A DNA stretch of 20,026 nucleotides from a virus: the IMG/VR virus record IMGVR_UViG_3300037961_001489, positions 1 through 20,026 of that record, one strand, 5' to 3'. Position numbers and translations under genes: made by a program. The notes under the pieces were generated by a model that saw only the letters and a program-made list of their open reading frames with translations, searched no databases and was not told the DNA's origin. Shown here piece after piece: positions 15,279 through 17,396 of this stretch (position 1 is its first letter; the number at the start of each line of letters is the position of its first letter).

Positions 15279-15506
15279 ATGCAAAAGCTTTTTAACGTCA
15301 TGGCTGTCGCAGCCTTTGCGATGTCTGGAACGATGGCTGTGAGTGGCGTGCTGTTTTATAGCCGCATTCCATCGTTGACCAAGAAATACATCAGCGACCT
15401 GAAGACTGAGCTGACCAAGGCAGTTTTAGATCAGGTGCCTGTTCCGGAGATCCCTGAGATGCCGGAGTTGCCTAAGGCCACTGGACCTGCAATTCCACTG
15501 CCTTGA
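15279..15506 (+). CDS. Small membrane protein with proline-rich PEIPE tail (cyanophage family)
   Basis: The product is 75 aa. It starts MQKLFNVMAVAAFAMSG and has one hydrophobic segment (~residues 5-28), a charged helix KKYISDLKTELTKAVLDQ, and a Pro-rich end VPEIPEMPELPKATGPAIPL. Very similar proteins exist in cyanophages, where I recall them beside a larger PEIPEI protein; here that partner begins at 16070 after an interruption. The gene probably acts at the inner membrane or in the virion. The ATG sits 3 nt past the terminator's T run, and the only G-rich stretch is the stem GGGG ~9 nt upstream, so its translation signal is unusual. Confidence 0.72.
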   Translation: MQKLFNVMAVAAFAMSGTMAVSGVLFYSRIPSLTKKYISDLKTELTKAVLDQVPVPEIPEMPELPKATGPAIPLP

Positions 15507-15514
15507 CACAAGAA

Positions 15515-15535
15515 AACCCCGCCTAGGACGGGGTT
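15515..15535 (-). terminator. Hairpin terminator, probably for the minus-strand gene, perhaps bidirectional
   Basis: AACCCCG at 15515-15521, a 7-base loop and CGGGGTT at 15529-15535 form a strong stem. On the minus strand it is followed by TTCTTG, making TTTTCTT with the stem end, a good T run. On the plus strand it is followed by CTCAGG, a poorer tail. It could therefore end the leftward transcript from 16071 and also the small membrane gene. Confidence 0.7.
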
Positions 15536-15777
15536 CTCAGGTGCCGACGCTCTAGCAGAACAGAGGCTGATCTAACAGCTTGGGAACTAGGTCTAGCGTG
15601 ATGCTTGTCAGAGTTGCTTTGACCACGGCCAGCCTGCATCACGGCTGACGGGAGTTCAAAACTGACAACCTGGCCTACAGGGAGCACAACTGGCCTAAAA
15701 CGGACATCTTGCGATGGCTGGATTAGGAGAGCCGTGGAGGCTGTAGGAGAGGTATGCCCTTTATAGCACAGGAAAAA
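15536..15777. other. Intergenic stretch with possible structured element
   Basis: No convincing gene is seen. ACGCT at 15547-15551 can pair with AGCGT at 15595-15599, enclosing a small GCTG/CAGC hairpin (15666-15669-style pairing at 15566-15569 with 15576-15579). CTGGCCTA-type octamers occur at 15670-15677 and 15690-15697, and once in reverse near 18646. A purine-rich AGGAG at 15745-15749 precedes an ATG at 15754 that opens a 39-codon frame antisense to the wedge gene. Any of these could be regulatory; none is proven. Confidence 0.35.
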
Positions 15778-16071
15778 TCAGGTCACCATCTTGGTGTTGG
15801 CGGTTTCGTCATTTTCAGTTTCGCTGGTCCCACTTACAGGGTCACTTACGGGGTCACTTACGGGGTCACTTAAAATTGCAAGCCAATCTCTGAGCGCAGC
15901 TCCCGTAGGCGTTGAAGGCGGCCAGCGCACAAATCTAAGTAGCTGCTTCGGGTCAGTGAACAGCATTGAAGAATTGCCAGATCTGCAGACATAGACAAGC
16001 GGCGGTCCTTCTCTGTGCTTGGTAGCTTCAATCCAGAGCTGACCTGCTGTAAACCGTTCGCCTGTTTTCAT
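15778..16071 (-). CDS. Minus-strand gene of unknown function with SDPV repeats
   Basis: This 97-aa protein is read leftwards, starting at ATG 16071. It begins MKTGERFTAGQLWIEATKHR and has PLVYVCRSGNSSMLFTDPKQ, then LLRFVRWPPSTPTGAALRDW. That is a compact alpha/beta fold pattern I cannot name. The C-terminus has three SDPV repeats, encoded by a 12-nt DNA repeat, then an acidic Thr-rich tail. It lies in the opposite direction between two forward genes that I recall as neighbours in other cyanophages, and it ends upstream of a leftward terminator. Its ATG overlaps the ATG of the divergent forward gene. The composition is gene-like, but no homologue is recognised and its function is open. Confidence 0.68.
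   Translation of the reverse strand: MKTGERFTAGQLWIEATKHREGPPLVYVCRSGNSSMLFTDPKQLLRFVRWPPSTPTGAALRDWLAILSDPVSDPVSDPVSGTSETENDETANTKMVT
15829..15874. repeat. Tandem 12-nt repeat encoding SDPV units
   Basis: The unit GGTCACTTACGG is present about three to four times in a row (15829-15874), with the first and last copies slightly altered. On the minus strand it encodes the SDPV repeats of the 97-aa protein. Such short in-frame repeats change copy number easily by slippage, so length variation between related phages would be expected. Confidence 0.85.
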
Positions 16072-16744
16072 GCCAGAGATTCCGGAGATTGGTATTGGAA
16101 CGATAGGCGTGCCAGAAATCCCAGAGCATCAAGTCATTCCACCGCCAAGGTTGCCATCAGAGCCGCCAGTGACATTGATGCTGGGCTTCCCTGTTGCAGA
16201 CATGCCCGGTGGTGAGATCCCACACTATGAGGCGTTGGATTTTACGCCTGGGCGGCATACGCACCAAACAACAAAGCCGCCAAATCCTGGGGAAGAGAAA
16301 AAACCGGCTGAGCCGAAACAGCCGGTTACCGCACCCCTGCCAGCTGCGCCTAATTCAGCTGACACTCCAAAGGTAGAGCCAGAATTGCCATGTCCTCCAA
16401 TATCCGCTTTACCTATAGGTGCACAAAACAAAACTCAAACTGCTGTCATCATTGGTTACGAGATGGTGGATGGGACGTGTGAACCACAACTCAAGCCGTT
16501 GGACTTACCAACGATCATCGGCAATTATCTTCCTGCTCCGGGCCTTGTCACTACGACTGCGACTGTTGCTGCGGTGGCGACTACGGCGGCCATTCTCGCG
16601 AGACCTTTAGGGGACATTCTGCTCAAAGCCGTCAAACCCGTCGTCAAAAAGACGATCAAGAAGATCAAGGAGAAGATGGGGAAGAAAGTTGCTGTTGAGT
16701 CTGCTTGGGAGAGACGGAAGTTTCAGCGGTCTTTACGGAAGTAG
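16070..16744 (+). CDS. Proline-rich, membrane-anchored PEIPE protein (cyanophage family)
   Basis: The product is 224 aa. It begins MPEIPEIGIGTIGVPEIPEH and continues with Pro-rich segments (PPPRLPSEPPVTLMLGFPVA, then PNPGEEKKPAEPKQPVTAPL) to about residue 115. It then has a Cys-containing folded part (TAVIIGYEMVDGTCEPQLKP), one membrane segment (~158-178, TTTATVAAVATTAAILARPL), and a strongly basic end (VKKTIKKIKEKMGKKV). The family is one I associate with cyanophages; an envelope or virion role is likely, and no function is established to my knowledge. Its ATG overlaps that of the leftward wedge gene, and no Shine-Dalgarno is seen. Its last 80 nt overlap the 3' end of the convergent minus-strand gene. 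Confidence 0.75.
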   Translation: MPEIPEIGIGTIGVPEIPEHQVIPPPRLPSEPPVTLMLGFPVADMPGGEIPHYEALDFTPGRHTHQTTKPPNPGEEKKPAEPKQPVTAPLPAAPNSADTPKVEPELPCPPISALPIGAQNKTQTAVIIGYEMVDGTCEPQLKPLDLPTIIGNYLPAPGLVTTTATVAAVATTAAILARPLGDILLKAVKPVVKKTIKKIKEKMGKKVAVESAWERRKFQRSLRK

Positions 16745-17396
16745 GGATTGAGTGCGTGTGGGGCGGCAGATTGCCTGGCGGATTGCTTAGGACAACATCA
16801 GCGCAGATTCCACGGTATGGACTTTTGGGGTGAAAACTGATGCCCTTGCGGAGCAGCTCGCCGCAGTTCTTGAGTCTTGCTATCTCGTGATTAAGCCTTT
16901 TGTCCGCGAGTTGCTGCTCTAAAAGCGCCACTTGCTTTTCTGCCGCTCGATGGCAGCTTTTGATATGAGCGCGATCTAATGGGATTGAAATCGTCGCAGT
17001 GATTCCGCCGTTAATCGAGTAGTTGCTTTTTTGCCCCGTCCGAATCGGACGATAATAAAGGATATGGCCCGGATTATCGGGCCTGCCATCCGGGATGGCA
17101 ATGCCATCCTCATCAAACGCGCCAATGAGATCGAGATTGTCATAGACAGGCTCGTCGTAGTAGGACTCGTAAGGTTTGGCCCAGCTGGTTGTTGTACTGA
17201 GGAAAGGACTGATTGTCAGGCTTGTTCCTTGACAGCTGAAGTTGCCGTATTGATAGACAAAGTTTTTGCCAGGCACAACCTGCACAGCCTGATTGGTGAC
17301 TGAGCCAGAGCTGTTTGCGACTGGAGCGGCAGTGCTTGAAACCTGTGCCTGCGCAGGAGCGGAAAGCAGCAGAAGCGTTGCTATGACTCGCTTCAT
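16665..17396 (-). CDS. Exported protein, MKRV type (cyanophage family), last gene of minus-strand operon
   Basis: This 243-aa protein has a signal peptide (MKRVIATLLLLSAPAQA, cleavage after Ala17). Mature features are GSVTNQAVQVVPGKNFVYQY, NFSCQGTSLTISPF, a loop region rich in Tyr and Asp (YESYYDEPVYDN), ATISIPLDRAHIKSCHRAAE, and a coiled coil LLEQQLADKRLNHEIARLKN. It then has CGELLRKGISFHPKSPYRG with a third Cys pair. The ending is Ser/Thr/Pro/Gln-rich. Related proteins occur in cyanophages, as I recall, ending near ICADV; the extra tail here runs over the 3' end of the convergent gene. The ATG overlaps the stop of the next gene upstream in the operon by 4 nt. It is exported to the periplasm or surface; its role is unknown. 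Confidence 0.75.
   Translation of the reverse strand: MKRVIATLLLLSAPAQAQVSSTAAPVANSSGSVTNQAVQVVPGKNFVYQYGNFSCQGTSLTISPFLSTTTSWAKPYESYYDEPVYDNLDLIGAFDEDGIAIPDGRPDNPGHILYYRPIRTGQKSNYSINGGITATISIPLDRAHIKSCHRAAEKQVALLEQQLADKRLNHEIARLKNCGELLRKGISFHPKSPYRGICADVVLSNPPGNLPPHTHSIPTSVKTAETSVSPKQTQQQLSSPSSP

Follow-up and report, generated by a model that had tools for sequence, protein, structure and literature searches.

The morons of lambdoid prophages are extra genes located between two others that lie side by side in relatives; many are on the opposite strand, and they come with a terminator. The PeSL are small cassettes shuffled at gene borders, which combine an early promoter for the downstream gene with a stem-loop terminator; promoter/stem-loop cassettes of this type were reportedly described in T4-type phages by Arbiol in 2010 and Comeau in 2014. 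To our knowledge, only a few examples exist of phage RNAs directed against host functions. RNA decoys have precedents in the pseudo-ToxI of phage PhiTE, a non-coding RNA that consists of a variable number of small structured repeats (PMC3475682), and the Racr RNA anti-CRISPRs or solitary repeat units, which are short RNA units behind a predicted promoter (PMC10651486). The non-coding RNAs named in cyanophages are CFrI, PhotoRC-II, wcaG and the glutamine-riboswitch (PMC9602691).

The locus presented here belongs to a virus record of 20,026 bases with cyanophage tail and lysis genes (the window, by which we mean this whole stretch). As the preliminary description reported, a minus-strand ORF of 97 amino acids (m97; 15778-16071) lies between two plus-strand ORFs, up75 on its left (15279-15506, 75 amino acids) and dn224 on its right (16070-16744, 224 amino acids). 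The start codons of m97 and dn224 overlap as CATG (16069-16072). Up75 is assigned to PHROG 568 (phrog_568, 1.6e-11) and has one predicted membrane segment, as read from its sequence; dn224 belongs to PHROG 570. Both flanking genes had been regarded as a former pair, and they are indeed neighbours in empty-site relatives: only 1-9 nt separate them in eight distinct relatives, which makes them an ancestral neighbouring pair. The suggestion that they were once joined does not hold. A single ancestral gene split by the insertion was rejected, given that the two proteins fall in separate PHROGs and that most empty-site relatives have two ORFs, L056 being the only one without a start codon for dn224. 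The near-repeat previously reported in the flanking genes (15444-15460 and 16073-16089, 14 of 17 identical) is present and goes beyond chance, since four pairs of that quality are observed between up75 and dn224 versus 0.15 in codon shuffles; it reflects the proline-rich PEIPE motif common to both flanking proteins. Of 120 distinct up75 homologues, no more than 29 have a PEIPE-like tail, with a single case among the eight from empty sites. The motif therefore does not mark the insertion, and the interpretation of the near-repeat as a duplication or insertion scar was discarded.

Judging from the relatives, the up75/dn224 junction serves a family of marine cyanophages as a cargo slot. Among 66 loci fetched by dn224 alone, 49 carry m97, nine are empty and the rest contain DUF3310 or DUF3310 and another gene, so the comparison of presence and absence that had been proposed reveals a variable slot. 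The other states comprise a rightward DUF3310 gene (PF11753, 3e-18), DUF3310 together with m97, and further small genes. DUF3310 occurs at the junction as an alternative or an addition in L053, L072, L080, L102, L122 and others, sometimes with a further small gene in the slot (L127, L134). A dn224 tree with 112 rows gave 12 state changes among the 17 minority rows for m97, 16 among 21 for DUF3310 and 18 among 34 for the RNA cassette described below; gain and loss are not told apart in these counts, which an erroneous tree would inflate. The resemblance to morons is thus twofold: m97 is present in some relatives and absent in others, where the flanking genes are then adjacent, and the insert has its own terminator (a minus-strand hairpin and T-run, 15510-15535). 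These elements of the moron reading put forward in the preliminary description (presence/absence, cargo gene and terminator) stand; the PEIPE motif and near-repeat fall as evidence of joining, and the RNA cassette had been missed. The locus differs from morons in belonging to a cyanobacterial virus, with no integrase seen in the window, and in a slot that takes m97, DUF3310 and RNA cassettes in several combinations. With its empty, single and double occupancies, the junction provides a clean natural experiment on the entry and exit of phage cargo.

A scan of IMG/VR by m97 alone recovered 53 relatives, and the distinct m97 proteins amount to 78 once the loci fetched through dn224 are added, nearly all of them at the same junction; the CATG overlap with dn224 is kept in most relatives where it is checkable. 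The median pN/pS of the m97 frame is 0.35, four of the five other frames have values of 1.2-1.9, and the antisense frame that shares the wobble position of m97 has 0.43. On this evolutionary signal, m97 is a real coding gene under purifying selection in its own frame, and a chance ORF can be dismissed on the grounds of its homologues and the frame-specific pN/pS. An unconserved leftward frame or a constant gene order in relatives had been named as observations that would speak against the moron reading; the frame is conserved as a protein and the slot varies. The protein has a conserved domain of about 65 residues and then a variable tail with KMVT at its end. In the window, this tail includes SDPV repeats encoded by a tandem 12-bp repeat (GGGTCACTTACG, 15835-15873) that was not seen in relatives. 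M97 matches PHROG 37139 (function unknown, E 7.2e-12), and distant relatives occur in the isolates S-CBP42, S-CBP2 and S-CBS3 within small clusters of unnamed genes, which in S-CBP2 and S-CBS3 are near replication genes. The structure prediction that had been called for yielded a fold of four strands and two helices with moderate confidence (pLDDT 73); against the PDB it gave no significant match, only weak Pur-alpha-like ones, and its significant matches in a viral structure library were limited to its own family. No PADLOC match and no Pfam match above cut-off were obtained for m97. The protein may be a small host-takeover factor, possibly able to bind nucleic acids. Upstream, a minus-strand terminator predicted by the scan inside the dn224 coding sequence (16302-16327) is conserved in relatives, on the minus strand in 40 of 111 and on the plus strand in nine, with changes in the stem sequence. 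The leftward operon m93-m164-m149-m243 probably ends there, before m97, and m97 would therefore need its own promoter; the window scan detected no clear one, the promoter-like site described below being downstream of the gene.

The stretch from 15507 to 15777 has the appearance of an RNA gene, a unit separate from m97 and likewise leftward. The preliminary description considered it to be a terminator followed by an intergenic stretch. However, positions 15539-15770 correspond to a conserved structured-RNA cassette, and the hairpin, which is present (15515-15535), belongs to this adjoining cassette with its own promoter-like site and not simply to m97. About 270 nt separate the stops of m97 and up75 in the window; in the relatives that only have m97, this gene ends inside the last codons of up75. 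The terminator of the cassette (15510-15535, minus strand) abuts up75 and reads AACCCCG CCTAGGA CGGGGTT, then TTTTCTT. With a T-run (15510-15516) that belongs to the minus strand, the hairpin would end leftward and not rightward transcription; the weakness of this T-run explains why the terminator is absent from the scanner list. Among relatives, the stem sequence and the loop vary and the pairing is retained. At the opposite end, just after the m97 stop, a promoter-like extended -10 on the minus strand (TGTGCTATAAA, 15760-15770, read from 15770 to 15760) matches the consensus TRTGnTATAAT at nine of ten positions and reads left into the RNA modules. Of the 44 loci with the cassette, 39 have this motif after m97, versus none of the 87 m97 loci without it, and pattern scans for the two flanks of the cassette returned 22 and 58 stretches. 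The conservation of these flanks, a promoter-like motif and a terminator at the two ends, speaks for the cassette as an independent unit. The leftward frame at 15523-15687 corresponds to no reading frame common to relatives, and the stretch is covered by RNA modules. Two loci (L227, L228) have two tandem RNA cassettes, each with its own terminator, and in two others (L097, L153) a module called T is inserted within the loop of the terminator hairpin.

The modules between these flanks belong to about nine families (A to H and T), and the window array is D-B-C along the transcript. Module D (15669-15752, minus strand; about 83 nt) is a promoter-proximal long hairpin recognized by model R2 (7e-20 on the minus strand vs 0.0044 on the plus strand), in which five pairs are changed on both sides versus 2.1 when shuffled, far above slid controls. 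Module B (15600-15668, minus strand; about 67 nt; model R1, 6.8e-20 on the minus strand) has two covarying stems and an invariant complementarity between loop and tail (GAUGC/GCAUC). This complementarity is possibly a pseudoknot, a pairing that covariation cannot test because it is invariant. The alignments of B and D are small, with nine related sequences each. The terminator-proximal module C (15544-15598, minus strand, coordinates from the identical locus L002/L055) has 55 nt, is near-invariant and is found in many arrays. Module A, of 34-39 nt, has two 3-bp stems, with 13 different stem combinations; the stems are perfect in 22 of 27 variants, whereas shuffled interiors average 0.4 and never exceed 3 of 27. 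It occurs in A-A tandems, and arrays are otherwise mostly made up of different modules. The 61 distinct arrays among relatives display 30 module combinations and follow a common order along the transcript: D or E comes first, A, B and C succeed it in this sequence, and G, F or T stands last before the terminator. No conflict with this order appeared among 59 ordered pairs from 35 arrays, as compared to a mean of 16.4 and a minimum of 7 in 2000 shuffles; being related, these 35 arrays are not independent draws. The arrays clearly point to a fixed framework with changing content, and the anatomy as a whole (the slot, the coding nature of m97, the flanks and the structured, ordered modules) is well supported by the comparison of these sequences. 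Modules also occur at two other places. Single D, C or T modules without cassette flanks lie between the leftward genes for a 56-aa protein and an SSB-like protein, about 1.2 kb beyond an endolysin-like gene (L093:9750-9830, L041:778-855, L024:937-990, L133:9846-9886, L225 and L231), and cassettes occur between up130 and up75 in L113, L230 and L233.

Several observations indicate that the RNA is on the minus strand. The fold z of the whole window cassette is -4.6 on the minus strand versus -1.3 on the plus strand, the alifold value of module B is -17 versus -8, the consensus energies of B and D favour the minus strand, where G-U exceed A-C pairs, and model R2 scores far higher on this strand of module D. 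This assignment agrees with the promoter-like motif, with the T-run of the terminator and with the modules at the second site, which are read in the same direction within a leftward operon. Averaged over 41 interiors without the terminator, fold z is -0.8 on the minus and -0.6 on the plus strand, barely better than shuffled, and module A, taken by itself, has a consensus energy slightly in favour of the plus strand; the strand call consequently depends on B, D, the flanks and the context.

The cassette matches no Rfam family and is present in dozens of environmental cyanophage contigs. The window region had no covariance-model match at E up to 1, ten relatives gave only matches far below gathering scores, and no tRNA or known RNA was found in the cassette, which sets it apart from CFrI, PhotoRC-II, wcaG and the glutamine-riboswitch. 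As far as we know, these four are single elements and not modular arrays. The cassette DNA had no match in the phage records or plasmids searched, and a literature search, thin on subscription papers, found nothing alike. With PeSL it shares the form of a small shuffled cassette with promoter and stem-loop at gene borders. The content differs: distinct structured RNA modules stand in a set order between the promoter-like site and the terminator, and whereas the promoter of a PeSL drives the downstream gene, the promoter-like site here is followed by no protein gene. Like pseudo-ToxI it would be a phage non-coding RNA of small structured units in variable number, but with several unrelated module families in a fixed order and no sequence link found to a host antitoxin. 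Like the Racr RNAs it has short units behind a predicted promoter, but no Cas6 was found in 151 host-family genomes. Against 300 host-family genomes the window cassette DNA gave only matches of 24-29 nt; in 400, no match to models R1 or R2 was convincing. The best model match (L219, E 0.004) was rejected as a host origin of the modules and taken as chance, because neither cassette flanks nor phage genes are there. L203, a MAG labelled Sphingobacteriales, carries the whole phage gene block and was for that reason taken as a mis-binned phage contig. Abi_2 is present in 13 of the 300 host-family genomes, and no modules that might be AbiF-like RNA partners lie near the Abi_2 genes of these 13.

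From the sequence we infer the following expression and function for the cassette. The slot would hold two leftward units, m97 and, directly 3', a separate RNA gene with a sigma-70-type extended -10 promoter, the independently folding modules D-B-C and an intrinsic terminator. The RNA would be transcribed from the promoter-like site during infection, each module would bind a host protein or nuclease and so act in trans, and their module content would suit phages to different host factors, defence being the most plausible. We give this reading somewhat less than an even chance. The form favoured is an RNA that inhibits, or is a decoy for, host factors that bind or cut RNA, given that its modules are under structural constraint, can replace one another and have an uneven distribution, and that phages use RNA decoys elsewhere; the step of action in trans is weak because no host target was found. 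Its most elaborate version, a combinatorial rack in which one promoter and one terminator serve ordered slots of folded decoys, each against a different host factor and reassorted like alleles, is rather doubtful. The principal alternative is a regulatory shuffling cassette of the PeSL type, whose promoter-like site, stem-loops and terminator would serve recombination and transcriptional insulation between modular genes without any function in trans. Cassettes placed at gene borders in variable slots with promoter and terminator, single modules that also lie between two early genes, and a fixed order expected from homologous recombination and deletion within one collinear ancestral array would all fit. 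Nevertheless, such a function needs a promoter and a terminator only and not several covarying modules with compensatory changes, and the promoter-like site fires into the modules and then the terminator, driving no gene; we hold this explanation to be unlikely.

Another possibility is that the RNA acts in cis, the modules being 3'-UTR or intergenic elements for the processing and stability of the m97 mRNA, or of that of up75 in the opposite direction, with an effect limited to their own mRNA. The cassette does follow m97 in the same orientation in 33 of the 34 tree rows that have one (Fisher p 0.02, ignoring phylogeny), and single modules lie inside a leftward operon beside the SSB-like gene. 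Yet a conserved extended -10 separates the m97 stop from the modules, L181 has a junction cassette without m97, and the cassettes between up130 and up75 (L113, L230, L233) have no preceding leftward gene, which makes this interpretation improbable. It is more improbable still that the array mimics a type III (ToxI-like) antitoxin, each module neutralizing a specific host toxin ribonuclease. The tandem A modules of 34-39 nt do come close in size to the repeats of ToxI (36 nt) and are likewise repeated, module B is pseudoknot-like and PhiTE offers a precedent (PMC3475682), but the modules are mutually different instead of one repeated unit, no likeness to host loci was found in 300 to 400 host-family genomes, and ToxN (PF13958) was found in none of 151 host-family genomes, in a search that gave nothing in control genomes either. 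Finally, the hairpins would have to act as DNA (an origin, a packaging or a recombination site) in an explanation suggested by the stems of module A, which are almost all Watson-Crick (155 of 162 cells, with two G-T and two A-C in plus orientation) and fit either strand. B and D nevertheless have minus-strand G-U pairs where the plus strand would mismatch, R2 is far better on the minus strand, and the terminator and promoter-like site agree with it, leaving a DNA element very improbable, the least credible of these explanations. If the reading of the modules as RNAs acting in trans is true, an ordered, reassorting array of structured modules would represent a new class of phage non-coding RNA, and its modules could be used as probes for the RNA-binding or RNA-cutting factors of marine picocyanobacteria.

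Elsewhere in the window, 57 bases (17277-17333) of the leftward gene for a 243-aa protein are 84-88% identical to the T4-like cyanomyoviruses Syn30, S-SM1 and S-RIM4, and the rest of the 4 kb queried has no match to them. The adjacent ORFs of 138 and 140 amino acids at 1105-1946 look like tandem paralogues and probably encode tail proteins.
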